A stretch of DNA of 64,000 nucleotides from a virus. The stretch is taken from the IMG/VR virus record IMGVR_UViG_3300020578_000006, positions 1 to 64,000 of that record, one strand, 5' to 3'. Below are positions 21,289 to 63,839 of the stretch, in pieces. The position numbers were made by a program, and so were the translations under genes. The notes beneath the pieces are model-generated. The model made no database searches. It had not been told where the DNA came from and worked only from the letters and a program-made list of their open reading frames with translations. Numbering within the stretch: position 1 is the first letter of the stretch; the number at the start of each line of letters is the position of its first letter.

Positions 21289-21300
21289 CCTTAATCTGTT

Positions 21301-21374: not shown

Positions 21375-21382
21375 AATAATTT

Positions 21383-21661: not shown

Positions 21662-21663
21662 CA

Positions 21664-21738: not shown

Positions 21739-21742
21739 TTAT

Positions 21743-21823
21743 GCCGGGGTGCCAGAGTGGTCAAATGGACCTGATTTGTAATCAGGCGCGAAAGCTACGC
21801 AGGTTCAAATCCTGTCCCCGGCC
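21743..21823 (+). tRNA. tRNA with UGU (Thr) anticodon on a class II body
   Basis: Acceptor GCCGGGG/CCCCGGC, D-arm CCA/TGG, anticodon stem CCTGA/TCAGG with loop TTTGTAA (TGT), a 12-base variable region (CGCGAAAGCTAC), T-arm GCAGG-TTCAAAT-CCTGT. Bacterial tRNA-Thr is class I, while long variable arms mark Ser, Leu and Tyr tRNAs. So amino-acid identity is open: Thr by anticodon, Ser-like by body. Confidence 0.8.
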
Positions 21824-21827
21824 CATT

Positions 21828-21900
21828 TGCCAGGTGGTGCAATTGGTAGCACAGCAGACTTTGGATCTGCATGTTCTAGGTTCGAGTCCTAGCCTGGCAG
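21828..21900 (+). tRNA. tRNA-Gln (UUG)
   Basis: Acceptor TGCCAGG/CCTGGCA, anticodon stem GCAGA/TCTGC with loop CTTTGGA (TTG), T-loop TTCGAGT, discriminator G. Four bases after the preceding tRNA. Confidence 0.93.
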
Positions 21901-21976
21901 TGCTATATGGCTCATTTATTATTTTTAGCAATAAATTACTTTAGAATTATTATATACTATTGACATAAATAATATT

Positions 21977-22195
21977 ATGCCCGTAACAGTCACAAAAGTA
22001 GACACATTTCAAGCAAAATTAAATAGTGCTTTATTCAATCTAACTCAAGCAGATCCAACAACATATCCTGCAGTAACGTCTATGAGAATTGATGGTCCAG
22101 ATACTTCTAATGCATTTACAGGTACAACATTTGAATCGATCACGGCTTACTATATCTTTGATCAGTACGCATTAAGAACTAGAAATTCTCCGTAA
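21977..22195 (+). CDS. hypothetical protein (72 aa)
   Basis: Small soluble protein (MPVTVTKVDTFQAKLNSALF), Thr/Ala/Pro-rich, with FTGTTFESITAYYIFDQY. Unknown. A TTGACA stands close upstream but without a spaced -10. Confidence 0.55.
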   Translation: MPVTVTKVDTFQAKLNSALFNLTQADPTTYPAVTSMRIDGPDTSNAFTGTTFESITAYYIFDQYALRTRNSP

Positions 22196-22223
22196 CGCCA
22201 TTTAAAAACGACTAAATATTCTT

Positions 22224-22895
22224 ATGTTTTCAATAGCCGACTTATGGGCTAATACAGAGACTACAAACCATATTGTAGCGTTAGCAATTGCTTTTATTAC
22301 GGGTGTATTAAGCCCGATTATAGCCTCCTGGGCTAAGGCAAGATTTTCTTTTAAGAAGGTAGAAATAGAAGAAGAAGAAACAGATGAGATTTTAAAAATG
22401 TTAAACGCAAATGAATTAGTAGATGAAAGAATAGAAAATATAAGAGCAGATTATGATTTCGATAGAGTGTGGATTGCACAATTTCACAACGGTGGTTCTT
22501 TTTATCCTTCAGATAAAGTTTTAAATAAATTTCAAAAGTTTAGCTTAACTTATGAGGCATGTAAAAATAATATTTCAAGTGAGTTAAGTACAGTGCAAAA
22601 TGTACCGGTAACTGTCTTTACCTCTATATTAAGAAAAGTTAAAGAAGATGGCTATTTTGGAATTGATAATGTATCTGATGCAGTAGATACGAGTATGTCA
22701 TTAAAGCCGTTTTGGTGTGAACGGGGTGTGAAGAGTTTTGTGATAGTTGCAATAAAAAGTTTAGATAAGAAGTTTTTAGGAATTATGGTCGTAGATATGG
22801 TAACACAGGTTAGACCGTTTTCTGAAGAAATTATTAAAAATCTTATTGTCGAATCCAAAATACTTGGAGGATACTTGGTACGAGAAAATACGTAG
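22224..22895 (+). CDS. membrane-anchored GAF-like protein
   Basis: 223 residues: one transmembrane helix at about 15-37 (IVALAIAFITGVLSPIIASW), a charged coiled segment (45-70), then a GAF-like sensor domain with DRVWIAQFHNGGSFYP and LTYEAC, a pattern of small phage membrane proteins (x-R-(V/I)-x-(I/L)-x-x-FHNG). Ligand unknown. Preceded by CTAAATAT, so late-type expression is possible; could relate to lysis timing or membrane sensing (inference). Confidence 0.65.
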   Translation: MFSIADLWANTETTNHIVALAIAFITGVLSPIIASWAKARFSFKKVEIEEEETDEILKMLNANELVDERIENIRADYDFDRVWIAQFHNGGSFYPSDKVLNKFQKFSLTYEACKNNISSELSTVQNVPVTVFTSILRKVKEDGYFGIDNVSDAVDTSMSLKPFWCERGVKSFVIVAIKSLDKKFLGIMVVDMVTQVRPFSEEIIKNLIVESKILGGYLVRENT

Positions 22896-22915
22896 ATATA
22901 GTTTATAATAAAAGA

Positions 22916-23104
22916 ATGAGGCGTCGTAATTATTTTTACCGAACGCATGAAGAGGATTATAATTCATTGGCCCGGGATGCAGCCGAGCTTTATGTTTTTA
23001 GAAAAAGTTTACTTGAAGCACAATTATGTTCTAAGAGATTAATTTTATTTCTTGTAACCAGTGGGCTAATTAGTATCTCACTTCTACTTACATTAATGTT
23101 TTAA
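22916..23104 (+). CDS. membrane protein (62 aa)
   Basis: Basic/aromatic N-terminus (MRRRNYFYRTHEEDY), amphipathic middle, one C-terminal transmembrane helix (about 41-61). Overlaps the next gene's start by one base. A single-pass, tail-anchored microprotein of unknown role. Confidence 0.5.
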   Translation: MRRRNYFYRTHEEDYNSLARDAAELYVFRKSLLEAQLCSKRLILFLVTSGLISISLLLTLMF

Positions 23105-23373
23105 TGCATGTTTTACTTCGTCTAAAAATTGAGGAGAAAAGTAACAATTGCCCCTATACTCCTCAATCGGTGAGTGATATCACTGAATCTATTAAAGAGG
23201 CCGTATTAAGACTTAAGATTAAAAACCCTCTTTTTGAGACGCTAGTCAAATTAGAAAAAAATAAAGTCACATATTGTCAGTTTAAAATGTCACCGACTGT
23301 GTGGAGATTTTTTCTCGCAGCCTTCGGTTCAGTTGAGACTATTGAAAGAGACTACGAAATATATTTAGTTTAA
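23104..23373 (+). CDS. hypothetical protein (89 aa)
   Basis: Starts directly at the stop of the membrane protein upstream. Soluble, mixed alpha/beta (MHVLLRLKIEEKSNN), with PTVWRFFLAAFGSVETIE. Unknown. Confidence 0.55.
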   Translation: MHVLLRLKIEEKSNNCPYTPQSVSDITESIKEAVLRLKIKNPLFETLVKLEKNKVTYCQFKMSPTVWRFFLAAFGSVETIERDYEIYLV

Positions 23374-23410
23374 CCTTGCTTTTTCGTTTCATAACTTATA
23401 ATATAACCAG

Positions 23411-23569
23411 ATGAGAGAGCTAATTGTACAAATCTTTTTTCTTGGAATTGCGATTGGTTTTTCTTTATATTTTTATTATGCTTGGCAAATTTCTAAAAAA
23501 GACGATCTTTCTTCTACCCGTAGTAGGAAAAGTGGTGGAGGCGCTAAAAAGCGTTCCAACAAAAAGTGA
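23411..23569 (+). CDS. membrane microprotein with basic tail (52 aa)
   Basis: ATG 23411, in a frame different from the longer frame at 23424-23732 that runs into a tRNA. One transmembrane helix (about 5-26, IVQIFFLGIAIGFSLYFYY) and a basic Ser/Lys/Arg tail. TATAAT lies eight bases upstream with a TTGCTT-like -35. Role unknown. Confidence 0.5.
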   Translation: MRELIVQIFFLGIAIGFSLYFYYAWQISKKDDLSSTRSRKSGGGAKKRSNKK

Positions 23570-23640
23570 GGTTTGGGGTTATCCTTTTTTCTTTTATGAA
23601 AGAAAACCCCGCTTATTTTCGAATATGATACCGGGCATTT

Positions 23641-23731
23641 GGCCCGGTAGTTTAATGGTAAAACAGCAGACTTATACTCTGTATTATCGCCAGATTAGCG
23701 TAAAATGTAGGTTCGACTCCTACCCGGGCTA
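23641..23731 (+). tRNA. tRNA with UAU (Ile) anticodon and 24-base variable arm
   Basis: Acceptor GGCCCGG/CCGGGCT, D-arm GTTT/AAAC, anticodon stem GCAGA/TCTGT with loop CTTATAC (TAT), T-arm GTAGG-TTCGACT-CCTAC. The variable region is 24 bases and can form a stem (TTA-CGC/GCG-TAA). Ile tRNAs are normally class I with 4-5 base variable loops, and AUA is usually read by CAU-lysidine tRNAs. So both anticodon and body are unusual. Confidence 0.75.
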
Positions 23732-23735
23732 GTGT

Positions 23736-42651: not shown

Positions 42652-44466
42652 ATGCCTGAGTACGGAAATTCTGATTCTGGACGTGAATCGACATTTGGTC
42701 GTTCGTTAATGAGTTATATTAACTCTAAGCTTCCTTATCAGAGCTATACATCTATTGATACTATAAGTAAACTAAATCCCAAATTTAAAGTATTTCAAGA
42801 TACAGGCAGTAAGAGAACAGAAGCACTAGCCAGACAAAGCATTAGCAGTAATACTGAATATAATAGCTTAGACCCATCCGGCATTATTGGTCTAGATAAC
42901 AATTTCACCCAATACATGTATGCAAATGTGCAACATGACAAAGTATCTAGATTAAGAGACTACAGAACAATGGCATCTTTTTCTGAAGTAGCCGATGCGC
43001 TAGATGAAATATGTGATGATGCAATAAACAAAGATTCAAAAGGCAAAGTAGTTCATGCTAAGTTTCTAGATCTAGATTTAAATGACAAAGACACTACAGT
43101 TCTAGAAGAAGAGTTTCAAAAATATATTCAACATTTTGATTTGTCCCATAAAGGGTGGGAATATTTTAGAACACTACTAGTTGATGGTGAGTTATACTTT
43201 GAACATATTATCCACAAGCAATACGAGGATGAAGGAATATTAGGAGTTATAACTGTACCTAACGAATTTGTTGATCCTATTTTTGGCAATGTACAGAATA
43301 TGATGATTAAGGGCTTCTTGTTAAGAAAGCCAGTTTTTGACAAAAACAACCCTACCAAGATATTGGAATATAAGCTTGTTCCAATGGACAAAAATCAAAT
43401 AACTTATATTAACTCTGGTATATGGAATGAGAACAAGACAATAAGACTTCCGTTCATAGAGAACGCAAGAAGAGCATATAGGCAGATTAGTCTATTAGAA
43501 GATGCGGTCGTAATTTATAGGTTGGCACGAGCACCTGCGCGTTTAATCTTCAATGTAGATGTTGGCAATATGCCTGCACCAAAAGCAGAAGCGTATATGC
43601 GTAAATTAATGAACCAATATTGGTCATCTAAGAGTTTTGATGCGCAGCAAGGCGGAGGGGCTCTTAAAAAATATAACCCACAAAGTATTTTAGATAATTT
43701 CTGGTTTGCAAAGCGCGCTGGTTCTGAAGGTACAGATGTAAGACAATTAGAAGGTGCAAATCAAGCTTGGGGGCTAGAGGAAATGAACTATTTCTTAAAG
43801 AAACTTTATAAGAGCTTAAAGGTACCAGTATCCAGACTTAATGCTGAAACTGGCTACAAAGATGATATGAACATTCTTCGTGAGGAATTAAAATTTGCTA
43901 AATTTATTGTTAGAATGCAGCAGCAATTTGCTGAAGGCTTAAAGAATGGTTTTGTAACGCATTTAAAGCTTAGAAAGCTTTGGGAAAAATTTGATCTTAA
44001 GGAAACTAACATTGATATTGAGTTTAATGTACCAATTAACTTCTTTGAGATGAGAGAGGCACAAAAACAGGAGATCAAATCAAAGACATTCGGTGACATA
44101 ATTCAATCAGCTGATAATATTAGTAAGACATATGCATTAAAGAAATACATGGATTGGACAGATGTAGAAATTCTTGCAAATAGAGAATTTATGAGAAAAG
44201 ATATGGCATTTAGCTGGGAATTAGAGCAAATTAAAGCTGGAGGCCCTAATTGGAAAGAAAATGCTTTAGCGGGTGTTGCTCCAGCAGAAGGTGGTGAAGT
44301 TGGTGGTGCAAGTGTTGGTGGTGGAGCCGCAAGTACATTACCGCCTGCTTTTGGACCTACCCCGGCTGGTGGACCAGAAGGTGGAGTTCCTGCTGAAGGC
44401 GGGCCTGCTCCAGCAGAGGGTGCACCGGGCCCTGCGGCCGGTGGGGCACCACCCCCTACCGGTTAA
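42652..44466 (+). CDS. 20: portal vertex protein, T4 gp20-like
   Basis: 604 residues, comparable to T4 gp20 (524) plus a C-terminal Gly/Pro/Ala-rich tail (about 535-604). Portal hallmarks: YRTMASFSEVADALDEICDDA, EYFRTLLVDGELYFEHI, VPNEFVDP, RAPARLIFNVDVGNMP, RKLMNQYW, FWFAKRAGSEGTDVRQLEG and VSRLNAETG. It forms the dodecameric DNA gate and assembly initiator. The low-complexity tail is unusual; it may be a disordered internal extension. Late promoter upstream. Confidence 0.95.
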   Translation: MPEYGNSDSGRESTFGRSLMSYINSKLPYQSYTSIDTISKLNPKFKVFQDTGSKRTEALARQSISSNTEYNSLDPSGIIGLDNNFTQYMYANVQHDKVSRLRDYRTMASFSEVADALDEICDDAINKDSKGKVVHAKFLDLDLNDKDTTVLEEEFQKYIQHFDLSHKGWEYFRTLLVDGELYFEHIIHKQYEDEGILGVITVPNEFVDPIFGNVQNMMIKGFLLRKPVFDKNNPTKILEYKLVPMDKNQITYINSGIWNENKTIRLPFIENARRAYRQISLLEDAVVIYRLARAPARLIFNVDVGNMPAPKAEAYMRKLMNQYWSSKSFDAQQGGGALKKYNPQSILDNFWFAKRAGSEGTDVRQLEGANQAWGLEEMNYFLKKLYKSLKVPVSRLNAETGYKDDMNILREELKFAKFIVRMQQQFAEGLKNGFVTHLKLRKLWEKFDLKETNIDIEFNVPINFFEMREAQKQEIKSKTFGDIIQSADNISKTYALKKYMDWTDVEILANREFMRKDMAFSWELEQIKAGGPNWKENALAGVAPAEGGEVGGASVGGGAASTLPPAFGPTPAGGPEGGVPAEGGPAPAEGAPGPAAGGAPPPTG

Positions 44467-49314: not shown

Positions 49315-50253
49315 ATGAGCGTAGACTTAACCTTTTTTAAGTCAAATCCAAACAATATCTTAAGAGTCAAAAGAACAGGTTCATCAAGATCGCATGTAAT
49401 TATTGACTTTGTTAAGAATAACAAAAGCCTTCTTTCCGGAAAAGAATACAACGTTAAAGATTATGAAAGTATAATGTGTTATAGTGTAAGCCCTAATATA
49501 GATGAATTAAAATATTATTTAAAAAATAAAAAAAAGAACGACTATCTCGAACTTAATGATAAGCTCGATCACTTTTATATTGCACGTGCATTAAAACTAC
49601 CAATAGCAAAAATCTTGGAAAAAGATAAGGATAAAATAGTAAAAAGCTTTTATAAAATATACATTTCGTTTTTGAAGCAGTATTATGTAGAAGAGCAAGA
49701 TTTAAAGAGAATTAAAAAGACTGTTAGTAATATTAGTGATTTTTCCATATTACTTCAATATCTTCCGTATGACAGTGAATATAAGAATGGTAAGAAAAGA
49801 GTTATTGTATTAGACAGAATTCGCAAATGGCTTTATTCCTATTTTTACCCCGGTTGTCTTCCTTTTATTGAATTATATGATAAAGAGCTTATATGGGCGC
49901 AAAATATTATGCAAACACTTTTACCTTTAAATTTAGAGTATGCCTATCTTAATATAGGTAGTGGTATTAAATTTGATGAGGCTAAAGATATATGGAGAGG
50001 TCTTATTAGAAGCAAATACGAAACAGCTATTAAGCTTTTATCTGAAGAGGAAGCAGAAGCCAAGGAAATTGACGACCAGGAAACGATTTTAGAAATAAAT
50101 TTATTAAGAGAGAAGCTTAAGACTGTTGTTGAGGCTTTAAGGTTTGATTCAGTAAAAAGTATTCAAGAATTAATTATGTTTTGGCCAGAAGAGCTTTCAC
50201 CCGGGCCTCAAATTACTATTGACCCAGTTGGCCGGTCTTTAGTCTTTAGATAA
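49315..50253 (+). CDS. conserved phage protein, family member 1 (312 aa)
   Basis: Helical/charged; C-terminal block DIWRGLIRSKYETAIKLL ... SIQELIMFWPEELSPGPQITID resembles the C-terminus of 61444-62313 (IW-x-x-LI ... SIxExIxxWPxxLxPxP). Proteins ending in a similar WP-x-x-L-x-P-x-P motif occur in marine T4-like phages. Function unknown. Confidence 0.6.
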   Translation: MSVDLTFFKSNPNNILRVKRTGSSRSHVIIDFVKNNKSLLSGKEYNVKDYESIMCYSVSPNIDELKYYLKNKKKNDYLELNDKLDHFYIARALKLPIAKILEKDKDKIVKSFYKIYISFLKQYYVEEQDLKRIKKTVSNISDFSILLQYLPYDSEYKNGKKRVIVLDRIRKWLYSYFYPGCLPFIELYDKELIWAQNIMQTLLPLNLEYAYLNIGSGIKFDEAKDIWRGLIRSKYETAIKLLSEEEAEAKEIDDQETILEINLLREKLKTVVEALRFDSVKSIQELIMFWPEELSPGPQITIDPVGRSLVFR

Positions 50254-51618
50254 ATAGCCCTTAATTATATTAATTAATCCTTCCAGCATAGTTTTATAAG
50301 GCTCAGGGTAAAACAATAAACACTTTAAATATTCGATAATTTTCTTTAATTCTTGCTTTGATAATGTTTCTATACAAAACTCAGGTATGAGTACATCATT
50401 AGTATGATTAATTTTTTCCATTGATAGACCATTCCATACATATTCTTCTTTACCGTTTTCATGAATCCCTTTAATTCGACTCCCCAGGGGGCCATGTACA
50501 GTATTAATATATAAACGTAATTTGTTTTTAACACAAAAATCGACTATTCTATGGGTTTCATAAATATTTTGAATTAGCGGGCAAAACAGAAGCGAATATA
50601 ATCTATTAAGCGAAAGCAATTTTTCTATATTTTTTTGTACCATGTTAAAATTACCATTTTTTCTAATAAAATTATAATTAGATTCTGTTAAAGAATCTAT
50701 AGATAGCAATATACCCATATTGGGAAGTTTTGCAAATAAATCTTCTATTCTTTTGTTTAAAATAGAACCATTTGTAGTTACAAGAACAGATATATTTGGA
50801 TTAATTTCTGCTATACTATCCCATATTTTATAATATAAAGGTGTTAAAAACGGCTCACCGCCTAGAAAATTTGTCGTTGTTAAATGAGGTATAAATTCTT
50901 TAAGTTGATTGACAAAAGCATCATCATAGGGTGATATTAGTTGTGGTAGTTTTTCCCTATTTTTTCTTATAGAAGATGACCACTTTCCACCACACATAAT
51001 GCATTCGTAATTACAAACTGTTCCAAATTCAAAATCCATATTTACCGGCATATCATTGTATATACTAGAACGCCATGAATTAAACTTCTTAATTAATATA
51101 TTTTTGTTTAATGCAAGAATGCCTTTATAACACAAATCACAGCCTTTTGTAAAATCTAACTTAGATAATGCAGCTATTAAATCTTTTCTCTCTGTGCTAT
51201 TCCACATTTCTTTTATAGTTTTGTTGGGGTAGCTACCTAAGACATGCTGTCTATTATAACAGCATACATTGACATTTCCTGTAGAATCAAAATTAAGCGA
51301 TGTATATGGTGCACAGCAAATAGGAGGCTCTCTATGTATAATGTTTTCTTCTTTTAACACTTGTATGTTGGTTAGTAGTTTTTCCCTTTCAGATTCTCTA
51401 TAGAGATTATCTATTGCTGTATCTACAAACTCCTTATAGCCATAAGTGTCACACAACCACACAACAGTCTCAATAGGATTATCCACCTCATCAAGACTAC
51501 CGTCGTGCGGGTTAATTCTTACCGACATTGCTTTAAATTGCTCTGTAGAAAAAGGTGCTTGTCTTTCTTGTTTTATTGCTAAAAACAAATCAATTATTTT
51601 TTCTGGAAATTTAGACAT
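50239..51618 (-). CDS. radical SAM protein 1 with N-terminal SPASM/twitch region
   Basis: 459 residues. An unusual N-terminal auxiliary-cluster region (CC at 101-102, CC at 119-120, C160, C163; APYTSLNFDSTGNVNVCCYNRQ) precedes the radical-SAM core: CNYECIMC (C202, C206, C209) then FLGGEPFLTP. The core binds a 4Fe-4S cluster to cleave SAM. Such phage proteins ('twitch' type) are of unknown substrate. Paired with the GT8 gene, 8-base overlap. Confidence 0.85.
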   Translation of the reverse strand: MSKFPEKIIDLFLAIKQERQAPFSTEQFKAMSVRINPHDGSLDEVDNPIETVVWLCDTYGYKEFVDTAIDNLYRESEREKLLTNIQVLKEENIIHREPPICCAPYTSLNFDSTGNVNVCCYNRQHVLGSYPNKTIKEMWNSTERKDLIAALSKLDFTKGCDLCYKGILALNKNILIKKFNSWRSSIYNDMPVNMDFEFGTVCNYECIMCGGKWSSSIRKNREKLPQLISPYDDAFVNQLKEFIPHLTTTNFLGGEPFLTPLYYKIWDSIAEINPNISVLVTTNGSILNKRIEDLFAKLPNMGILLSIDSLTESNYNFIRKNGNFNMVQKNIEKLLSLNRLYSLLFCPLIQNIYETHRIVDFCVKNKLRLYINTVHGPLGSRIKGIHENGKEEYVWNGLSMEKINHTNDVLIPEFCIETLSKQELKKIIEYLKCLLFYPEPYKTMLEGLINIIKGYLSKD

Positions 51619-52432
51619 ATATCTTACTTTTTTCTACGTAACTATCAAAAATGTATTTTAGCTTGTTAATTATTAGTTTACTAGATGTTGCATTTTTTGT
51701 TATTTCATCCTTTACAAATTCTTCAAAACACTCTTCTGCTTTATCTGAATGCCACGGCTTAACAAAACCATGATATTGAATAATATGTGCATCTTTTAAG
51801 GATTGTACAGAGGCTATAGATGAAACCACATTATATTTTTGCGGAAGGTAGAATACATCACCGGCGAAACACACATTAAATACAGGCTGATCACTCGACC
51901 ATGATTTTTCGGATGCTAATTTTATTAAAGATTGCTTGTACTTAGGCTTTAAGAATTTTTTAGAAAATGACATTAAACCACAATTAAATCTTTTGCGATT
52001 TTGTTCTATTGGGCTGTTTGGCTCAATCTCAGGAATGCCTAAATATTTTTCACACGCAGAAAACAAATGTTTATCTTCCCATAGCTCCTTAATATCATTA
52101 AGAAATACCATATCACTATCAAATATAATAATACGATCATACCCTAAATTCCCCATCTCAAATACATCAAATCTGTAGTATAAATTATATCCCCATTTTT
52201 GGGTAGTAGGTAGGCACCCACTATAATCATTATTCTTAGCATTAATAACAATAATGTTTTTATAAATTTTTTTAAGTGTTAAAATATTTTTTTCTGATAA
52301 ACTACCATCTGATAACAATATTATATCACCATCGAACCATGGATTACTTTCTTTTAAACTAATCAAAAAAACTTTCATACTAAGCACAAAACTATCGTTA
52401 AGAGCCAATAACATAGCAATCTTTTTATTCAT
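51611..52432 (-). CDS. GT8-family glycosyltransferase 1
   Basis: 273 residues: AMLLALNDSFVLSMKVFLISL, RFDVFEMGNLGYDRIIIFDSDMVFLNDI (DSD metal motif), FNCGLMSFSKKF, SDQPVFNVCF and YHGFVKPWH. These are GT8 hallmarks (LgtC/glycogenin group; retaining galactosyl- or glucosyltransferases). A relative is at 63039-63839. Confidence 0.9.
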   Translation of the reverse strand: MNKKIAMLLALNDSFVLSMKVFLISLKESNPWFDGDIILLSDGSLSEKNILTLKKIYKNIIVINAKNNDYSGCLPTTQKWGYNLYYRFDVFEMGNLGYDRIIIFDSDMVFLNDIKELWEDKHLFSACEKYLGIPEIEPNSPIEQNRKRFNCGLMSFSKKFLKPKYKQSLIKLASEKSWSSDQPVFNVCFAGDVFYLPQKYNVVSSIASVQSLKDAHIIQYHGFVKPWHSDKAEECFEEFVKDEITKNATSSKLIINKLKYIFDSYVEKSKIYV

Positions 52433-54016: not shown

Positions 54017-54772
54017 ATGAGACCGCTAGTATTGATATTTACCTGTAAAAAATATATTTATAGGTGTAAAGATATACAAGAAACTTGGGGCCATGACCTT
54101 AAAAAAAATAATATAGATTACTTTTTTGTTAGTGGTGACAATCTCGATATAGAGCCATATCTAAATATAGATTTTAAAGAAAGCTATGAACAACTTCCAC
54201 AAAAAACATATATTACTTTTAATAGAGTAAAAGATTTAAATTATACCCACTTTATTAAGACAGATGACGATACATTTTTTAACGTTATTTCGTTTTTAAA
54301 AGAGCTAAACAGCTTATCAAATTTTGACTACATAGGTAAGTTTAACAAGCAAACTTCAGCTTCTTCAAAAATTCATTATTTTAAATGTAATGATTCTTTT
54401 AAAATTCCCAAACGTATATCTAAATTTTCTTATGCAGAGGGGGGTTTTTATATTTTAAGCAAAAAAGCACTAAACTATATTTGTGCTCAAAAAGAAAGTA
54501 CATTCGTCAATAAACCTACATCCTATAAGGGGGAGGATGTTTTAGTGGGTAGCATACTAAAGAATAAAGTAAAATCATTAGACATTAAAAATAACAACTC
54601 AGAAAAATTTAATATGGATCTAACTTTGTTCTCTCTTCACCCTGTAGATACTAGCATATTCAAACAGCTATACAAAAAAACCTTTAATTCTCAATTAAAA
54701 ATCTTACAACAAAATCAACTTCTAAACGAATATAATATTAGAGATAAATTCTTGGCAAATCTTAAACCTTGA
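54017..54772 (+). CDS. GT31-like glycosyltransferase (galactosyltransferase type)
   Basis: 251 residues: PLVLIFTCKKYIYRCKDIQETW, FIKTDDDTFFNV (DDD metal motif), FSYAEGGFYILSKKALNYI, YKGEDVLVGSIL (ED-x-x-x-G). These are signatures of beta-1,3-galactosyl/GlcNAc transferases (GT31), best known from eukaryotes and uncommon in bacteria. Compact compared with eukaryotic members. Acceptor unknown. Confidence 0.8.
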   Translation: MRPLVLIFTCKKYIYRCKDIQETWGHDLKKNNIDYFFVSGDNLDIEPYLNIDFKESYEQLPQKTYITFNRVKDLNYTHFIKTDDDTFFNVISFLKELNSLSNFDYIGKFNKQTSASSKIHYFKCNDSFKIPKRISKFSYAEGGFYILSKKALNYICAQKESTFVNKPTSYKGEDVLVGSILKNKVKSLDIKNNNSEKFNMDLTLFSLHPVDTSIFKQLYKKTFNSQLKILQQNQLLNEYNIRDKFLANLKP

Positions 54773-56150
54773 AAAAATCTTCCGGTAGCTTCTTACAAAA
54801 GCCTACTTTTTCATAAATTTCTTTACCCGCCGTATCCACGTCCACAAAAGGAAATTGCCGCTCTAACATATATTGTCTTTGAGGCTCTTTAAAATTATTG
54901 TATTTTGATTTATCTAGCCAAAGCGTTTCCTGCCATAACTTTTTATCGAGATAGGGATATCTTACCTCTATACCATGGACTCCACAGCAATACTCACAAG
55001 AATAAGGATTATTATCATCATAATCTATAACACCATTAATATCCTTAAGCCTTTTAAATAGCTTATTAATACCCTTAAAGCCAATGGCATCTCCACCTAA
55101 GCCGGATAAACAAATCTTATATCCTTCTTTTTTTGCTTTTAAAAAAATAAGACCGGCCCCTATAAACCCATAAGTCTCTCTACATACATATCCTACAAAT
55201 TTATTTTTATAAAAATCAAAGTGAGTATAGGCATAGTCCTCGACATTTTTAAAAATTTCATCTCGAGTAATCTCATGCATACTATCTGTAGGGTCGATAA
55301 GCTCTTTATTGACAATATTAGGTATTAAAATCTGTTTTCCTTCTATGATAGGTGGATTTTTAGTACTCAATCCATGGCGCCATAATAAAACATTAGACGG
55401 CTTTTCTAATACATTGACGGAATAAGCTTTAAAAGGAAGGTTATACTTTAACAGGGCGCTGCAAATAGCTCCGCTATCATACCCCTCACTAACACCCATA
55501 AAAATTTTTTTAGAAGCAGCAACAGTTCTTTTCAATATACTTTCATCAAACGCCATTTTCCAATCATCTAAATTAACTTTGTGTTCATTATCTAAATCAA
55601 AAGCTGTTATTTTATTTAATTTTATATTATCATTGCTTATATCGTATGTGTAATAATAATTTCCATATACGTGAAAAATTTCTTTATACCCTAATACAGA
55701 CAGTGCGCTCTTATATGAAGCTATACCTATTGTATTATTATGAATACTAAAAAATATAGGCTTAGTACCGAAAGTGTCAGAGCCAAAAATTAATTTCTTT
55801 TTTTTCTTATCTAACAAAACGATAGTAAATTCACCATCAAGATATTTAAAAAATTCTGCTCCATACTCTTCATATGCTTTGATTATACTTTCTCCATCTG
55901 ATAGACTATCAGGGGTAATGTCTTTATAATTATATATTTCACCATTGAAAACCATTATGATGTCACCACATTTAGAAATAAGTGGTTGAGGGGTCAAGTC
56001 TCCGGTAATACTTAGTAAATTATGTATAAAGTGAAAGCCGCTTTCGTTTTTATAAGAAGTTAAATCTGGTCCTCTAAATTTTTGATAGAAATTGGCGGCA
56101 TTTAAAACTTCTTCGGATGTATCTTTATTTGTGACCAAAAAACTACACAT
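54762..56150 (-). CDS. asparagine synthetase-like amidotransferase (AsnB family)
   Basis: 462 residues: Cys2 nucleophile (MCSFLV), FNGEIYNY, DTFGTKPIFF (class II glutaminase), then the synthetase half with an altered P-loop VSEGYDSGAI instead of SGGLDSS, and LSGLGGDAIGF. AsnB-type enzymes amidate carboxylates; members in secondary metabolism modify other acids. Shorter than E. coli AsnB (554 aa). The altered loop suggests another substrate or reduced activity. Confidence 0.85.
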   Translation of the reverse strand: MCSFLVTNKDTSEEVLNAANFYQKFRGPDLTSYKNESGFHFIHNLLSITGDLTPQPLISKCGDIIMVFNGEIYNYKDITPDSLSDGESIIKAYEEYGAEFFKYLDGEFTIVLLDKKKKKLIFGSDTFGTKPIFFSIHNNTIGIASYKSALSVLGYKEIFHVYGNYYYTYDISNDNIKLNKITAFDLDNEHKVNLDDWKMAFDESILKRTVAASKKIFMGVSEGYDSGAICSALLKYNLPFKAYSVNVLEKPSNVLLWRHGLSTKNPPIIEGKQILIPNIVNKELIDPTDSMHEITRDEIFKNVEDYAYTHFDFYKNKFVGYVCRETYGFIGAGLIFLKAKKEGYKICLSGLGGDAIGFKGINKLFKRLKDINGVIDYDDNNPYSCEYCCGVHGIEVRYPYLDKKLWQETLWLDKSKYNNFKEPQRQYMLERQFPFVDVDTAGKEIYEKVGFCKKLPEDFFKV

Positions 56151-56200: not shown

Positions 56201-57355
56201 ATGCTTGATAAAAATTTATGTATTTTGCCATGGATTTCGCTTTATATAAGAGCGGACGGCAATATTTATCCCTGTGAAAGTGTAGCCTGGCAAGGAGACG
56301 ACTACTTACTTGGTAATCTAAACACAACAACACTAGAGGAAGCTTGGAACCACGATATGATGAAGAAGCTTCGGCTTAAAGTTATTACCAATTCTACATG
56401 CGAACTGTCTAATGAAGAGAAAAATTCTTGCATGTACCTTATAAATCATTCTCTTTATGAAGACGTATATAAAAATTACAAAAACGAAACAAAGTCAGAC
56501 GGAAGTTATAAAGTTGATATAAAAGCATTATTTTTAGAAAGATCCAATCTTTGTAATCTTCAATGTTTATATTGTTGTGATGTTAGTAGCTCTAGCTGGG
56601 AGCGAAAAAATAAAACCAATATAATGAAAATTAGTGATACTGTTTATGATTTAAAAGTGCTACCTATAACAAACAATCTTAGAGAATTATTTTTATCTGG
56701 CGGTGAACCGGTTATTAACAAATACAATAAAAAACTCTTACAACATTTAATTAACCATAATCCAAATATAGAATTAGGAATGGCAACGAATTTAACTTAT
56801 AATTTTGAACTATATGAAGAGTTTTTTAGTTTATTAGAAAAATTTAATAATACTAAAGTTTTTTGTAGTGTAGACAGCTCAGAAACTCGACACGATTTTA
56901 TTAGAATCAACTCAAATTGGAATACCGTAAAAACCAATTTAAATAAACTTAAAAACTATAAAGTAAGAATATATTTTAATAGTGTTATATCTTTATTAAG
57001 TGCTTTCTACTTAAAAGAATTTCACGAAACTTTAATTAATATGAAGATAATAGGCATTGACGGTATTCGATATATTAATTTGACTGGTCCAGAAGAACTT
57101 TGTATACAGTCGCTTTCGTTTAATAAGAAAAAAGAACTTAAAGAGTATCTTATTAGCTACATTAATTTTTTAAAAGAAAATGAAAATTTATCTAATAATA
57201 TAGATTTATATCCAAACAATAACAAGCCTTCTCAGGCTGCAGACAATATAATAAAATTTTTATTTAAAAAACTAGGTAATAATAATTATATAGACAATTT
57301 GTCTAAATTTGTATCTATAGATACTATTAAAAAACACTTTGACAGATTACTCTAA
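56201..57355 (+). CDS. radical SAM protein 2 with N-terminal SPASM/twitch region
   Basis: 384 residues. N-terminal CILPWISLYIRADGNIYPC (C7, C25), LGNLNTTTLEEAWN, C67, C77; radical-SAM core CNLQCLYC (C118, C122, C125) then LFLSGGEPVIN. Same inverted order as radical SAM protein 1. Late-type GTAAATAA precedes ATG. Substrate unknown. Confidence 0.85.
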   Translation: MLDKNLCILPWISLYIRADGNIYPCESVAWQGDDYLLGNLNTTTLEEAWNHDMMKKLRLKVITNSTCELSNEEKNSCMYLINHSLYEDVYKNYKNETKSDGSYKVDIKALFLERSNLCNLQCLYCCDVSSSSWERKNKTNIMKISDTVYDLKVLPITNNLRELFLSGGEPVINKYNKKLLQHLINHNPNIELGMATNLTYNFELYEEFFSLLEKFNNTKVFCSVDSSETRHDFIRINSNWNTVKTNLNKLKNYKVRIYFNSVISLLSAFYLKEFHETLINMKIIGIDGIRYINLTGPEELCIQSLSFNKKKELKEYLISYINFLKENENLSNNIDLYPNNNKPSQAADNIIKFLFKKLGNNNYIDNLSKFVSIDTIKKHFDRLL

Positions 57356-57648: not shown

Positions 57649-58317
57649 ATGGTCAAAACTATGGTTATAGTTCCTCATGGAGATGATGAAATATTAGGCT
57701 TTTATGGGGCTATAAAAAGAAATTTAGAGCAGAACAATCATGTTAGTGTTGCGTTTATTATGGGGCCTAAGAACCTAACTAACGAAAGGAACACTCATCA
57801 ATTTCACACTATAGAAAAAGTTAAAGATAAGTTAGGTTATAACGAGGTGTTTTATCTAGATATTTTTAACGAACACAATATTCATTCAAATAAGCTCGAG
57901 CTCATCACAAGAATAGAAGAACTTGTATCTAATAATCATATAGATATCGTTTACACCACCCACTGGGGTGACAACCATCAAACACATAAATTATGCTATG
58001 AAGCGGTTGTTGCAGCCATAAGACCTATAGGGCCATGTAAAGCATCGAGACTAATTACAGGGGAGATTATATCCTCTACAGATCAAGCCCCGCAAACAGA
58101 AGCACATAGCTTTATCCCTAATATATTTTTGGAATTGTCCGAACAAGAAATAGAGGAAAAGATTAATCTTTTGAAAATGTATGAATATGAATATATGCAA
58201 ACCCCTCACCCTAGATCTGAGTGGGGGCTAAAAGCGGTAGCTAGCTTTAGAGGTATACAAGCAGGTGTTAAATACGCTGAAGGATATTTTTGTGCAAGAG
58301 AAATCATTAAAAAATAA
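57649..58317 (+). CDS. PIG-L/LmbE family deacetylase
   Basis: 222 residues: IVPHGDDEILGFYG (zinc motif H-x-D-D, 10-13), YNEVFYLDIF, THWGDNHQTHKL (the H-x-D-H-x-x-T/H block) and SSTDQAP. The family removes acetyl groups from N-acetylglucosamine-like sugars or mycothiol-type precursors. Own early promoter, unlike the neighbours. Confidence 0.85.
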   Translation: MVKTMVIVPHGDDEILGFYGAIKRNLEQNNHVSVAFIMGPKNLTNERNTHQFHTIEKVKDKLGYNEVFYLDIFNEHNIHSNKLELITRIEELVSNNHIDIVYTTHWGDNHQTHKLCYEAVVAAIRPIGPCKASRLITGEIISSTDQAPQTEAHSFIPNIFLELSEQEIEEKINLLKMYEYEYMQTPHPRSEWGLKAVASFRGIQAGVKYAEGYFCAREIIKK

Positions 58318-59527
58318 CATAGAACAAATTGTAAATCAAAAGCATTTTTGTATTTTACCGTGGGTACATTTATATCATTTTACTGATAAAAAAGTATATC
58401 CATGCCCTGTTATGGGTGCATGGGGAGTCAACTCATTAGGCAACACTTCTGATGATATAGAAAAATTATGGAATAGTGAGCATCTTAAAGAGATAAGACG
58501 CAAGATGCTTAACAACGAAGCAATACCTTTTTGTAATAGAAACTGTAATGATTCTATAAACTCGTGCAAAAGACATTTTGGATTAGAGCTCATAGACAAG
58601 GCATCCTCAGCCATTCTAAATACCAAGCCTGATGGAAGTGTCGACCCTATAAACTTTATTGCGTGGAATATTATAGAATCAAACAAATGCAATTTTAAAT
58701 GTAGTTATTGCAATGTAAAATACTCTAATCGATTTGGTGAAAAATTAGAGACGTTCTCAGATACAGAGGCCATGAAGGATAAGATATTTCCATATCTTGA
58801 TAATATAGAAGAACTTTGGCTAGCATCTGGGGAGTCAGCCATACAAGACAGCTATTATGATATTCTAGAAGAACTTATTACAAGAAACCGTACAGATATA
58901 AGATTGTTTTTTATCACTAATATGAGTGTTGTAAATTATAAAGGTAGAAATATTTTTGAAATACTGAGCAAATTTAAAAATGCAGTAATATTTGGAAGTA
59001 TAGATGATAGGGAATCTAGACTTGAATACATAAGGTTTGGAAGTTCTTACAGTAAGATATTAGAAAATAGAATAGAGCTTTTAAAATATCCTAGTATTAA
59101 GTTTTACTTGCAACCTGTAATTAGTATATTTAATATTTTCTCTTTTCCAGATTTTCATAGAGATTGGTATAATCGAGGTCTTATAGGGGCTGACGAAGTA
59201 AGATATTATGTATTAGATTCTCCTTCATATCTTCAAGCCAACATTTTGCCTTTAAAATATAAAAACAAACTTTTAGAAAAATGGCGCGGCTATCAACAAT
59301 GGATAAAGGACAACTTAACTGATAAGGTAGATACATACCCTAACAGATGTAACCCCGTTAACTTTATTGACACACTTATAAACCATATAAGCGTACCAAA
59401 AGATAATTTAGAGCTACAGCATTTTTTTACTTTTATAGATGAAAATGATAAAAAGACCGGGCTTGCTTTTAATAATGTTTTTAATGAATATGGAGATATC
59501 AAATGCATTTCAAAGAAATATTTTTAA
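58292..59527 (+). CDS. radical SAM protein 3 with N-terminal SPASM/twitch region
   Basis: Start set at GTG 58292 (a longer frame from 58265 overlaps the PIG-L gene by 53 bases). 411 residues: CILPWVHLYHFTDKKVYPC (C20, C38), LGNTSDDIEKLWN, C81, C85, C92, core CNFKCSYC (C133, C137, C140), LWLASGESAIQ. Closest to radical SAM protein 2 in layout. It follows the deacetylase and leads directly into 59503-60345. Confidence 0.85.
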   Translation: MQEKSLKNNIEQIVNQKHFCILPWVHLYHFTDKKVYPCPVMGAWGVNSLGNTSDDIEKLWNSEHLKEIRRKMLNNEAIPFCNRNCNDSINSCKRHFGLELIDKASSAILNTKPDGSVDPINFIAWNIIESNKCNFKCSYCNVKYSNRFGEKLETFSDTEAMKDKIFPYLDNIEELWLASGESAIQDSYYDILEELITRNRTDIRLFFITNMSVVNYKGRNIFEILSKFKNAVIFGSIDDRESRLEYIRFGSSYSKILENRIELLKYPSIKFYLQPVISIFNIFSFPDFHRDWYNRGLIGADEVRYYVLDSPSYLQANILPLKYKNKLLEKWRGYQQWIKDNLTDKVDTYPNRCNPVNFIDTLINHISVPKDNLELQHFFTFIDENDKKTGLAFNNVFNEYGDIKCISKKYF

Positions 59528-60345
59528 ATTTTTATAATTCTTTACCCATACAAAAGTTTATTAAGAATATTAATAATATTGGTAGGGGGGTTAAAGATAT
59601 TAATCAAACAGGGTTTCCCTCTAAGCTTTCTACACTAATATCTTTTAACTTTAAAGAAAATAAATTACTAAATTTTAAGATCTATTGTGAAATATTTAGA
59701 AAATTTAAAAAGTACGAAATCTTAAAGTTCTTACCAACAGACAAAGACTTTAACTACTATTTTAGTTATTGGGACAACACCCTTTCATCTAGCCTTTGCT
59801 TTGGTATAAAAGTAGACAAAGACCATCTACCCACTCAATATTTTCATATTAAATTAAACCGTGTAATAAAAGAATTTACAGAGTGTAAAATTTATAAGGA
59901 AAGGCCAACTTTTAAGAGAACGGGCATTTCATTTGAGTATACTGGTTCTTCTGTTAAAAAGAAATACTATTTTTACTTTACGGAAAGTGATGACATAGAG
60001 TATTTTAAGCAAAAATATAATCTAACATTAGACGGGGGGTGTATTGATCATATAGAATTTACAGAATTTGATAACGGTGATCAAAAAATAATAGTAGTAT
60101 ATTCATATAAAAACGAGGCTGCTTACTCTAATATTCAAAAAACTTTTTTTCATCATACTTTAATTAAAGACTGTGTAGAATACTTTACCCAAGACCACGA
60201 CCTCTTACCTTGTTACTTCGGTGTCTATAAAAACAATACAATTGCACTGTATTGGAGCGTTACAGAAAAAGAATTAAAAAATGTAGTAAATATAGATCCG
60301 CTAGCCTTTAAAAATAAATTAGAAAAATTACTCGATAAAGTATGA
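59503..60345 (+). CDS. hypothetical protein (280 aa)
   Basis: Overlaps the end of radical SAM protein 3 by 25 bases and the amidinotransferase start by four, so part of one operon. Alternating strands and aromatic residues (FSYWDNTLSSSLCFGIKVDKD; FYFTESDDIEYF; CVEYFTQDHDLLP). No family recognised; may be a transferase or binding protein. Confidence 0.55.
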   Translation: MHFKEIFLNFYNSLPIQKFIKNINNIGRGVKDINQTGFPSKLSTLISFNFKENKLLNFKIYCEIFRKFKKYEILKFLPTDKDFNYYFSYWDNTLSSSLCFGIKVDKDHLPTQYFHIKLNRVIKEFTECKIYKERPTFKRTGISFEYTGSSVKKKYYFYFTESDDIEYFKQKYNLTLDGGCIDHIEFTEFDNGDQKIIVVYSYKNEAAYSNIQKTFFHHTLIKDCVEYFTQDHDLLPCYFGVYKNNTIALYWSVTEKELKNVVNIDPLAFKNKLEKLLDKV

Positions 60346-61436
60346 AATGTGTTAATAGCTATAATGAATGGGATCCTTTAGAGGAGATTATTGTTGGTAA
60401 TGGATTTCCAGCAGATCTTCCTTCAGATGATCTGGGGTTTAAATTCTTTTTTCATGATAATCTTTTAGGACCAGATGGCGCATTATATGCAGGAAGATGG
60501 TATTTAGAAAAGAGATATATTGAAGAATTAAGAGAGGATTTAGAGTCATTTGTCAATATTTTAAAACAAAGAAATATTACTGTAAGAAGGCCTAAGGAAC
60601 CTGCAGGACCTCATGAAGTGAAAACGCTTTGTTGGTCATCAAGCAACTATCCTGCTCTCAATGTTCGAGATCTTACACTAGTAGTAGGTAATGAAATAAT
60701 AGAAACATCTGTATTGGCACGGTGGCGTCAATTTGAAAACGATTATCTTAAGCATTTATTCTTAGACTACTTTAAGAGAGGGGCTAAATGGACGGCTGCC
60801 CCAAGGCCCTTAAGTACTGATAAGTCTATAGATTATTCTAGAGTAGAGCAAACACCAGAAATAAAAAAGTATTATGATACTCTTAAACAACAAGAACATA
60901 GTAATCTAGATTGTGGGGTAGAGATAATGTTTGATGCAGCAAATTGTATTAGAATGGGCAACACAATAATGTTTAACGCGCCAACTGAACATGAGAGATT
61001 GGGCGCAGAGTGGCTACAGAGACATCTAGGTAAAAAATATAAAGTATGGACCGTTAATATATTTGATAACCATATAGATTCTTTATTTCTTCCTATTCGC
61101 CCGGGGTTAGCAATCTTAACCCTCCCCATAAAGCACAAATTGCCTGAGCCACTAAGAAAATGGGATATTGTCTATGTTCCTTCTTTACTAGAGCCGCACA
61201 AAACCCCTGATTATATGCCTATTGCATCAGAGAAAATATTTTGTAACCTGCTCTCTCTTTCACCGAACGAAGTCATATGTCAGCCAGAATATTATGATAT
61301 TTTATCTAAAAGGCTAAAACCATTTAAAGTAGAGGTAACACCAAACAGATTAAGACATAGTCGATTATTTGGTGGAGGACATCATTGTCTCACACTGGAT
61401 ATAAGAAGAAAGGGCAAATTAGAAAATTATTTCTAA
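60342..61436 (+). CDS. glycine/inosamine amidinotransferase-like enzyme
   Basis: 364 residues: EWDPLEEIIVGNG, ALNVRDLTLVVGNEIIET, IMFDAANCIRMG (Asp198), DNHIDSLFLPIRPGL (His244), RLFGGGHHCLTLDIRR (Cys349). The Asp-His-Cys triad and spacing match L-arginine:glycine amidinotransferase, which moves the amidino group of arginine to an amine. Substrate may be glycine, inosamine or another amine. Shares an operon with radical SAM protein 3. Confidence 0.9.
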   Translation: MKCVNSYNEWDPLEEIIVGNGFPADLPSDDLGFKFFFHDNLLGPDGALYAGRWYLEKRYIEELREDLESFVNILKQRNITVRRPKEPAGPHEVKTLCWSSSNYPALNVRDLTLVVGNEIIETSVLARWRQFENDYLKHLFLDYFKRGAKWTAAPRPLSTDKSIDYSRVEQTPEIKKYYDTLKQQEHSNLDCGVEIMFDAANCIRMGNTIMFNAPTEHERLGAEWLQRHLGKKYKVWTVNIFDNHIDSLFLPIRPGLAILTLPIKHKLPEPLRKWDIVYVPSLLEPHKTPDYMPIASEKIFCNLLSLSPNEVICQPEYYDILSKRLKPFKVEVTPNRLRHSRLFGGGHHCLTLDIRRKGKLENYF

Positions 61437-61443
61437 TTAATAT

Positions 61444-62313
61444 ATGCTCTACAAGTTGGCACAAAAACTATCCTTAAGGGGAATTATTATAAAAATTAGT
61501 TTTATTAATAATGGTATTGCTATCTTTAGAACTGTTTGTAATAGTAAGCATGCAGACTTATTTGGGTTGAAAGGTTCAGATTCTGAATTTACAGATATTA
61601 TTACAGAGCAGCCCGTAGAGTTCGATGAAAACTCTGTTACATGTCTAGAGTATCTTTATGTTCCTAAGCATATTTTTTTAGATGATTTTGAAAAAAATAC
61701 CGAATATACAAATTTATTTGGGGAAGATTTTCTTATAAAGAGTAAACATTATATCGAAACTACAACTAAAAAAATTCAAGAAGAGCGGGCCAGATTTATA
61801 ATGTACTCTTCCGAACAACTAGAACCTTGCAACCGATTTTCTAATGATTTGCTAGATGATTATTATTATATGAAGTTTTACCCTGAAAAGCGAGATAATA
61901 TTTCAAGAGAAATTGTTTATGATAAAATTAAAGAAGATATTATTAAAAAGTACTTTCTTATTAAGGATTCTGATAATAGAAAAATAAAAGGAGCTTTTAG
62001 AAGGCTTGGTATTACAAACGCTGCAGAGCAAATAAACGATCCAGATTATATTAATGCGTTTAAGAATATATGGTATAGCCTTATAGAAGAACAAAAAGAA
62101 GAGCAACTCTTACAGTTGGATACGGCCAAACAAAATATTCTAAAAGCCGAGGGTGTTGATAAAGAGGATTTTTTACAGCAATGTGATATACTTGAATTAA
62201 TGATCAAACAAATAGATAAAACTGTTCTATTAGGTTGTAATTCTATCAGTGAAATTATTAAAACCTGGCCCAGCTATCTTCAACCTGAACCATATTACAT
62301 AGACAATGAGTGA
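61444..62313 (+). CDS. conserved phage protein, family member 2 (289 aa)
   Basis: Helical, charged. C-terminal block NIWYSLIEEQKEEQLL ... SISEIIKTWPSYLQPEPYYID resembles 49315-50253. Overlaps the GT32 gene by eight bases. Unknown; the paired copies flank the island. Confidence 0.6.
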   Translation: MLYKLAQKLSLRGIIIKISFINNGIAIFRTVCNSKHADLFGLKGSDSEFTDIITEQPVEFDENSVTCLEYLYVPKHIFLDDFEKNTEYTNLFGEDFLIKSKHYIETTTKKIQEERARFIMYSSEQLEPCNRFSNDLLDDYYYMKFYPEKRDNISREIVYDKIKEDIIKKYFLIKDSDNRKIKGAFRRLGITNAAEQINDPDYINAFKNIWYSLIEEQKEEQLLQLDTAKQNILKAEGVDKEDFLQQCDILELMIKQIDKTVLLGCNSISEIIKTWPSYLQPEPYYIDNE

Positions 62314-63052
62314 AACAATTAACTTCTTCTGGTTAGGAGACAAGCTTGGATTATTAGAGCAGCTATCATTGAAGTCATTTTTAGACCATGGACATAAAAC
62401 AATTCTATGGGCTTACAATATCAAATGCCACGGGGTGCCTTCAGGTGTCATTGTTAATAATGCTAATGAAATACTTTCCGAAGATCGAATATTTAAATAT
62501 ACCGGTAACGGCGATTGTCGTGTAAATAGTATCGGTGGGTTTTCTGACTTATTTAGATATTATCTTTTGAATAAAGTTGGCGGGTGGTATTGTGATATGG
62601 ATGTTACCTGTCTAGCCCCTTTCAATAATATTAATCAGGAGTATGTTATAAGACCTCATAAAAATACTAAAATTGTTGGTAATATCCTTAAGACCCCTAA
62701 CAATAATAGTTTTCTAGAAGATTGTATAGCTGAAACCGAAAGACTTGTCGATAAGGATAACGATAGATGGATTAAACCATTAGAGATATTAAGAGATTGC
62801 GTATACAAGCACGGTATTGATAAGTTTATTGTTCAAAAAGATTGGTTTGGTAATGATGATATTGAGGAGATAAGAAAAATGTTAAACATAGGAGTATTCA
62901 CCAAATATATTAATTTACCTAAGTATGCTATTCATTGGTGTAATGAGGCAATTTCTACTGGTCGCTGGGACTATTCTATAAAGCGAGATTTTAATAAACC
63001 ATTGCCTACTACTCTATTTTATAACCTATTAAAAAAACATGAACTCTTGTAA
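62306..63052 (+). CDS. GT32-type glycosyltransferase
   Basis: 248 residues: TINFFWLGDKLGLLEQLSL, SIGGFSDLFRYYLLNKVGGWYCDMDVTC (D-x-D), VIRPHKN, and YAIHWCNEAIS. Matches the Gly_transf_sug/GT32 fold like 2596-3291 but without its Q-x-W start. Substrates unknown. Confidence 0.85.
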   Translation: MSETINFFWLGDKLGLLEQLSLKSFLDHGHKTILWAYNIKCHGVPSGVIVNNANEILSEDRIFKYTGNGDCRVNSIGGFSDLFRYYLLNKVGGWYCDMDVTCLAPFNNINQEYVIRPHKNTKIVGNILKTPNNNSFLEDCIAETERLVDKDNDRWIKPLEILRDCVYKHGIDKFIVQKDWFGNDDIEEIRKMLNIGVFTKYINLPKYAIHWCNEAISTGRWDYSIKRDFNKPLPTTLFYNLLKKHELL

Positions 63053-63839
63053 TATAGCGTTTGTAACTACGTTAAGCGATGATTTTTTGCCTGGAGCGGT
63101 TGCAGCAATTAAAAGCCTCATTAAAAATACCCCTACATTTAGCTACCCTATAATAATCTTAGAGTGGGGAGGCTTATCTGATTATAATAAAAGCTTACTT
63201 AAGAAAATATATAAAAATATTTCTTTTAAACATGTAGACTCTAATAACTACCCTGAGTATCAATCCGGTGAAAATAGAGTTTGGAATTATAATTTTAACT
63301 ATAGATATGATATATTTTTACTCGATAAATTTGATAGGATAATTTTCTTTGATTCTGATATAATTTTTAATATAGATATATCCAAATTGGCTAAGATAAA
63401 ATGTAATTTTGGTGCTGTTCCAAGGTCTAGAGGGACTAATGTTCAGATAGGAAAAAGACCGGGGTTTAATGCCGGCTTAATGATTATTGGGAAGAAGTTT
63501 TTAAATAAAGAAACCCGGGATAGTTTAATAAAGCTTTCTAAGCAGCCAGCTATTTTGGATATCCGTGTAAAAAAACAATTATGGATAGGAAATGAGCCCA
63601 TTCTAAACAATTTCTTTAAAACATTTACCAAATTACCAAAAAAATATAACTTGTGTATAGATGATATAAAGCCAAAAATTAATTTACTAGACTATAATAT
63701 ACATTATATTGGTAAACGTAAGCCGTGGAATAATTCTATAGATAGTTACGCCACTAACAAATTAGCATCAAAATACGGACAGTTCTTTGCAGTTCTTACG
63801 TCTAAAAAGCTTGTTAATTTATATAAAAAGTATACTTAA
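63039..63839 (+). CDS. GT8-family glycosyltransferase 2
   Basis: 266 residues: IAFVTTLSDDFLPGAVAAIKSL, RYDIFLLDKFDRIIFFDSDIIFNIDI (DSD), GFNAGLMIIGKKFL, NEPILNNFF and YNIHYIGKRKPW. Same plan as 51611-52432, lower identity. Overlaps the GT32 gene by 14 bases. Confidence 0.9.
   Translation: MNSCNIAFVTTLSDDFLPGAVAAIKSLIKNTPTFSYPIIILEWGGLSDYNKSLLKKIYKNISFKHVDSNNYPEYQSGENRVWNYNFNYRYDIFLLDKFDRIIFFDSDIIFNIDISKLAKIKCNFGAVPRSRGTNVQIGKRPGFNAGLMIIGKKFLNKETRDSLIKLSKQPAILDIRVKKQLWIGNEPILNNFFKTFTKLPKKYNLCIDDIKPKINLLDYNIHYIGKRKPWNNSIDSYATNKLASKYGQFFAVLTSKKLVNLYKKYT

Follow-up and report, generated by a model that had tools for sequence, protein, structure and literature searches.

A phage carries, in the 64,000-nucleotide stretch of DNA analysed here (the window), a gene for what is, by predicted fold and residues, a full-length L-arginine-type amidinotransferase (AMT), with activity predicted. 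The gene belongs to a cassette that is swappable between phages and that most likely edits or builds a glycan. The best explanation, which we hold with moderate confidence, is that the AMT of this cassette transfers a guanidine to the amine of a sugar in a glycan of the virion or the host surface. The computations themselves establish the family, the fold, the catalytic residues, purifying selection, the shortened flap and the gene neighbourhood; we infer the sugar amine as acceptor, the order of the steps, the prenylation considered below and the final target. The gene lies at:

60342..61436, plus strand: AMT, 364 amino acids, ATG start, stop included; shortened 300-flap at residues 241-243

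The original prediction had called this frame an amidinotransferase with an intact catalytic triad in a phage, a view borne out by the fold, the residues and the T4-type record in which the gene sits, and Asp198, His244 and Cys349 lie exactly at the positions it gave. In alignments they correspond to Asp254/His303/Cys407 of human arginine:glycine amidinotransferase (AGAT; numbering from PMC3684758) and to the triad of StrB1. Their spacing had been described as that of AGAT; the positions do match AGAT, but the spacing is common to the whole family and StrB1 is marginally closer by Z score. Full-length phmmer matches linked the AMT to StrB1 (E 3.6e-47) and AGAT (E about 1e-45), and no Pfam or NCBIfam family matched it at E <= 0.01. 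Structure alignment of its AlphaFold2 model (pLDDT 89, pTM 0.91) returned Z scores of 41.6 for StrB1 (1BWD), 40.1 for HsvA (5WPI), 39.8 for AGAT (1JDW) and 39.5 for SxtG, the comparison with SxtG and HsvA being one of names and scores in the PDB results only, while arginine deiminases scored 26.8 and below, a gap of about 13. Because these scores stand far above those of the deiminases and the triad matches, we assign the AMT to the amidinotransferases on fold and residues. Placement among arginine deiminases or inactive families, the outcome named beforehand as speaking against the assignment, is not what we found, as Z to deiminases is at least 13 lower and the residues are conserved. Of the 88 viral relatives, 87 have both His244 and Cys349 and the last is a truncated sequence, and both residues occur in 80 of 80 bacterial relatives; the position of Asp198 is D in 82 of the viral relatives and E in 6. 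D110, R129, H244, D246, S296 (nearly), C349, D353 and R356 are kept in viral and bacterial sequences as well as in AGAT and StrB1. The gene is also under purifying selection, with dN/dS of 0.03 for the pair L008/L009 and 0.07 for L014/L015, and of 0.14-0.18 in more distant pairs, which have high dS.

A pattern scan with an eight-member alignment retrieved AMT relatives on at least 551 viral contigs in IMG/VR and at least 527 bacterial contigs; that such genes are common in phages had been missed at first. In a tree of 116 sequences a single viral clade was rejected (p-AU 9.6e-8), and by sequence there are at least two separate viral AMT lineages. Clade A (100*) holds the window AMT, L005-L022, L024, the enzyme of Campylobacter phage CP220 and four bacterial sequences (L090-L093); the phylogeny against bacterial enzymes proposed with the original prediction thus sets the AMT in a distinct clade together with these four. 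Clade B unites about 37 viral sequences with StrB-like and Luminiphilus-type bacterial enzymes. Grouping of the window AMT with StrB was not found in the tree, StrB lying in another clade, and the AGAT sequence likewise falls in a clade different from that of the window AMT. One phage carries two adjoining, diverged amidinotransferase genes (L013:6893-7993 and 8001-9119).

In human AGAT the 300-flap (Asp298-Pro-Asn300-Pro-Met302) controls acceptor binding, and changes in this flap shift specificity in CyrA and AmtA (PMC4887976). Counted from the conserved LG..W up to HID, the flap segment has 29 residues in the window AMT and 28-30 across clade A. Wild-type AGAT-type sequences have 32 residues there, and StrB1 and most clade-B phages have 31; the 31 residues of the 2JDX row are those of the deltaM302 mutant of AGAT. 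The window AMT reads D-N-H against D-P-N-P-M-H in AGAT, with about three residues gone, including the equivalents of Asn300 and Met302, and the feature of AGAT proper, a 300-flap whose Asn300 and Met302 belong to the glycine pocket, was not found in it. The shortening suggests a more open pocket in the window AMT and does not name the acceptor; the lost Asn300 and Met302 equivalents in the clade-A flap would disfavour glycine and favour a bulkier amine. Production of guanidinoacetate, the other option originally raised, finds no support here, as this subfamily has a shorter form of the flap segment that carries Asn300 and Met302 in AGAT. The residue aligned with Arg322 of AGAT, which we take to bind the donor carboxylate, is Ile in the window AMT, in a loop where the alignment is uncertain, and donor recognition may therefore differ; we infer arginine as the amidino donor.

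The source record is a 229,717-bp large T4-like phage with a T4-type portal (phrog_213), to which the portals of the nearest isolates are about 30% identical. The cassette spans about 50 kb to 64.8 kb of the record and, as the portal gene is nearby, sits in a phage structural region. The portal gene and the remaining features of the cassette are:

42652..44466, plus strand: T4-like portal protein (gp20 family, phrog_213)
50239..51618, minus strand: N-twitch-like protein, the third of the radical SAM type (154 bits against a family cut-off of 170, thus under it)
51611..52432, minus strand: GT8-like protein, paralogue of 63039-63839 (35% identity)
54017..54772, plus strand: glycosyltransferase (Galactosyl_T / Fringe, GT31-like)
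54762..56150, minus strand: asparagine-synthetase-like glutamine amidotransferase
56201..57355, plus strand: second N-twitch radical SAM protein (NF033640, E 3e-58, 198 bits against a cut-off of 170)
57649..58317, plus strand: PIG-L/LmbE-type N-deacetylase (PF02585, 52.4 bits against a cut-off of 28.2)
58265..59527, plus strand: rSAM2, N-terminal twitch/SPASM radical SAM protein (N_Twi_rSAM; NF033640, E 2e-71, 241 bits against a cut-off of 170), GTG start overlapping PIG-L
59503..60345, plus strand: ORF280, predicted PT-barrel (ABBA) fold, stop overlapping the AMT start (ATGA)
61444..62313, plus strand: ORF289, no assigned family, 7 bp after AMT
62306..63052, plus strand: glycosyltransferase with DXD sugar-binding region (Gly_transf_sug; GT32)
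63039..63839, plus strand: glycosyltransferase family 8
L170:24-797, just outside the window: nucleotide-sugar dehydrogenase-like gene, at the cassette end

From PIG-L onwards the genes are tightly packed, with overlaps of 53 bp (PIG-L/rSAM2), 25 bp (rSAM2/ORF280) and 4 bp (ORF280/AMT, ATGA), a gap of 7 bp between AMT and ORF289, and overlaps of 8 bp (ORF289/GT32) and 14 bp (GT32/GT8). These overlaps support the predicted coupling of AMT to a radical SAM gene and a 280-residue gene, and make its co-transcription with rSAM2 and ORF280, which had been stated outright, a reasonable reading whose basis is the 25-bp and 4-bp overlaps. Scans of the cassette for promoters and terminators performed no better than on shuffles. 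The HxDD/H metal site of PIG-L is well kept among its relatives, with H10, D12 and D13 in 14 of 14 and H113 in 13 of 14, and the Asn-synthetase-like protein matches a lasso-peptide cyclase model weakly and in part. Elsewhere in the window there are eight tRNA genes, including Ile-tat and Arg-tct, at 7195-7426, 14333-14406 and 21300-23732.

The 280-residue protein, at first described as unknown, is coupled to AMT by its 4-bp overlap, and its predicted structure resembles a prenyltransferase barrel. Neither Pfam nor NCBIfam has a match for ORF280; its model, from a 7-sequence alignment, is of middling confidence (pLDDT 69, pTM 0.74) and consists of five beta hairpins flanked by helices. A Foldseek search returned nothing significant (best E 0.026), and in VIA-align the best 40 rows were all PT-barrel (ABBA) prenyltransferases, aligned over nearly the whole chain with Z 8.3-5.5, the next row scoring 4.1. 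The arginine prenyltransferase DciF took the top place, which carries no weight by itself because rows within 1 Z tie. All of the invariant residues (19/19) fall on predicted strands (p 2e-10). Lys and Tyr abound among them, which would be expected of an active site in the barrel lumen. Identification of ORF280 by sequence as a cyanobactin-type prenyltransferase found no support, the profile-profile comparison with 15 cyanobacterial prenyltransferases (TIGR04445) being negative (hhalign probability 0.4%). Provisionally, the model makes a PT-barrel fold likely and a prenyltransferase-like function plausible. The PT-barrel enzymes AutF and AgcF prenylate arginine guanidines (PMC9609003), which suggests, by analogy, that ORF280 may act on the group made by AMT. 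Relatives of ORF280 also occur beside rSAM, Asn-synthetase-like and glycosyltransferase genes with no adjacent AMT.

Among 38 AMT-bearing virus records, PIG-L was found in all 11 clade-A IMG/VR records, 0.9-7.9 kb from AMT, and in none of the 24 clade-B IMG/VR records; in CP220 and CPt10 it lies about 70 kb from AMT. Its proximity to AMT in clade-A phages yielded a combined p of 1e-5 in a test that treats related phages as independent. As a control for this pairing we used 21 close phage contigs chosen by portal similarity, 4 of which have PIG-L, none of these with AMT, ruling out PIG-L as an exclusive AMT partner; PIG-L therefore belongs to the swappable region and not to AMT alone. Since PIG-L occurs without AMT and clade-B AMTs occur without PIG-L, the pairing may partly reflect shared ancestry. 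The sole AMT contig in the portal control (L228, portal 77% identical) has a different, distant AMT beside a class-III-aminotransferase-looking ORF (L228:1162-2283 and 45-1175), which hints at repeated independent swaps. The earlier idea of a sugar amine exposed by PIG-L fits the surroundings, with PIG-L within 8 kb in 11/11 clade-A records and glycosyltransferases, NDP-sugar enzymes and DegT in relatives.

DegT/StrS-type aminotransferases were present in 26 of 54 viral loci, at a median of 835 bp from AMT. The viral DegT is a short form of about 205-240 amino acids, where a full one has about 370, and lacks the middle part of the profile (for example, L015:14485-15096 and L011:9293-9880), but the PLP Lys and Asp are kept in 26/26. 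Other genes recurring near viral AMTs encode UDP-sugar dehydrogenase, epimerase/RmlD, GT8, 2OG oxygenase, B12-radical SAM, carbamoyltransferase and rSAM families. N-twitch radical SAM matches occurred in 36 of the 38 AMT-bearing records, 23 of them over the family cut-off. The large phages G011, G016-G018, G022, G023, G033 and G034 (records of L027, L042, L044, L045, L052, L053, L083 and L087) have 11-17 such matches each. A PhyH oxygenase and a tryptophan halogenase are further members of the cluster in one of the relatives; a related phage cassette has a tryptophan halogenase (L008:11283-12701, PF04820, E 7e-82) two genes downstream of PIG-L. In the nearest bacterial kin, three N-twitch rSAM-type genes and a B12-rSAM surround the AMT of a member of the Bdellovibrionales (L092), and two N-twitch rSAM-type genes, a full-length DegT and a carbamoyltransferase lie near that of a member of the Bacteriovoracaceae (L093). 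AMT also occurs with rSAM genes in Campylobacter phages CP220/CPt10 and in cyanophage S-SCSM2R, and in CP220 and S-SCSM2R this set also includes glycosyltransferase-type genes.

We propose that the glycosyltransferases would build a glycan borne by the virion or by the surface of the infected cell, with a virion protein and host lipopolysaccharide among the candidate carriers, and that the PIG-L deacetylase would uncover a sugar amine, which DegT aminotransferases may also supply in relatives. Cys349 of the AMT, with His244 and Asp198 as partners, would attack the guanidino carbon of arginine, ornithine would leave, and the amine acceptor would resolve the amidino-cysteine to yield a guanidino sugar. 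The radical SAM enzymes, the Asn-synthetase-like protein and ORF280 could alter this product further, and the contribution of ORF280 to the pathway may be a prenyl group, perhaps placed onto the guanidine. A prenylated guanidine made by AMT and the coupled ORF280, on a sugar or a side-chain amine, would give virions or infected cells a cationic-lipidic surface; we consider this extension quite unlikely, and we know of no prenylated guanidino decoration reported for any virus.

One point against a sugar is that rSAM/SPASM, Asn-synthetase-like and PT-barrel enzymes serve in peptide tailoring as much as in sugar chemistry. The cassette could instead tailor a peptide or virion protein, with the rSAMs, the PT-barrel protein and AMT working on side chains (a lysine or ornithine amine becoming an arginine-like guanidine) and the glycosyltransferases glycosylating the protein. 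Both rSAM/SPASM and cyanobactin-type PT-barrel enzymes work on peptides, the arginine-guanidine prenyltransferases AutF and AgcF are known (PMC9609003) and DciF is the top structural row for ORF280; the partial, weak match of the Asn-synthetase-like protein to a lasso-peptide cyclase and the tryptophan halogenase in a relative's cluster point the same way. However, the neighbours are more often sugar enzymes (PIG-L, DegT, epimerases, UDP-sugar dehydrogenases), and no precursor peptide was identified short of a systematic search, so that we regard peptide tailoring as unlikely, if by no means far-fetched. Guanidinylation of a free polyamine, as reported for HsvA (title of PDB 5wpi), is suggested by the closeness of the folds (Z 40.1), but the neighbourhood is glycan-type with no polyamine genes recognised nearby, and we consider it very unlikely.

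A glycine amidinotransferase making guanidinoacetate, for the creatine pathway or as a guanidino metabolite, is suggested by the fold and triad shared with AGAT and by the name used in the CP220 annotation (PMC2853527) and the viral K00613 assignments (PMC8226683); creatine biosynthesis is also listed as virus-enriched (PMC11360552), via the methyltransferase step. The flap about three residues shorter, without Asn300 and Met302 of AGAT, the place of AGAT in another clade and recognised neighbours that are sugar and radical SAM genes nonetheless make this extremely unlikely. Hardly more can be said for modification of phage DNA, such as the aminomethyl group of dPreQ1: the phage encodes QueF, with DpdA-like and formyltransferase genes recognised by eye at 78.7-80.1 kb of the record, but QueF occurs in 5 of 11 clade-A records, 22-108 kb from AMT, none of the clade-B records reaches the cut-off, and a thymidylate-synthase-fold gene is absent from the record, and we judge such a role most improbable. 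The region concerned (L170:14733-18957, record 78.7-83.0 kb) resembles a 7-deazaguanine DNA-modification set, with QueF by PF14489, a DpdA-like protein by eye (without Pfam match), a Formyl_trans_N protein (DpdN-like guess) and a GuaB-like protein by eye. As for a hydrolase of the arginine deiminase type or a pentein without activity, pentein folds are common across these groups, but the Z gap of about 13, the full residue conservation and the purifying selection leave it a next to negligible probability.

This class of enzyme was known, as were copies of it in phages. What is new is the clade-A subfamily with its shortened lid and its linkage to N-twitch radical SAM genes, seen both in phages, where PIG-L is linked to it too, and in Bdellovibrionota; the existence of at least two separate viral lineages is new as well, and so is the probable prenyltransferase fold of ORF280, the coupled gene. 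A literature search for phage amidinotransferases with glycosyltransferase or radical SAM genes returned nothing relevant. Widespread phage amidinotransferases (at least 551 IMG/VR contigs) have been named after glycine or creatine metabolism, and viral K00613 (PMC8226683) or 'glycine amidinotransferase' labels probably need more evidence behind them before they are taken to mean creatine metabolism. Our evidence points to a decoration chemistry resembling that of aminoglycoside antibiotics (deacetylase/aminotransferase, radical SAM, amidinotransferase and glycosyltransferase), in cassettes swapped by phages near structural genes. If guanidinylation of a sugar amine is correct, guanidino sugars are among the products of viruses and form a class of phage surface modification that is still unexplored and that is likely to affect adsorption, defence or the use of receptors. 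There would then also be a testable pathway for the many N-twitch radical SAM genes of large phages, of which a single record has up to 17 matches.

Several known systems bear comparison with the cassette. HsvA (5WPI) shares the fold of the window AMT (Z 40.1) at 29% identity, and the cyanobactin enzymes AutF, AgcF and DciF have the PT-barrel fold in common with the ORF280 model, with sequence-profile similarity undetectable. Human AGAT (1JDW) is like the window AMT in fold, in triad and in the equivalents of Asp170, Asp305 and Ser355, but differs in that the window flap is without Asn300/Met302 equivalents, the Arg322 position is Ile and the context is not that of a creatine pathway. Campylobacter phages CP220 and CPt10 carry five radical SAM genes together with a putative glycine amidinotransferase as an interchangeable cluster, a module for which a host metabolic benefit was proposed (Timms 2010, PMC2853527). 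The CP220 enzyme, within this swappable radical SAM cluster, belongs to the same wider clade as the window AMT (identity about 30%, and 22-25% for CPt10), but there PIG-L is not adjacent (about 70 kb off) and ORF280 was not found. The best match is StrB1 (L-arginine:inosamine-phosphate amidinotransferase, 1BWD; E 4e-47, Z 41.6, 34% identity), which has the same catalytic residues, whereas the window AMT has a flap 2 residues shorter, a phage origin and a place in another clade. StrB1 acts on an aminocyclitol, and its pathway also uses StrS/DegT-type aminotransferases.
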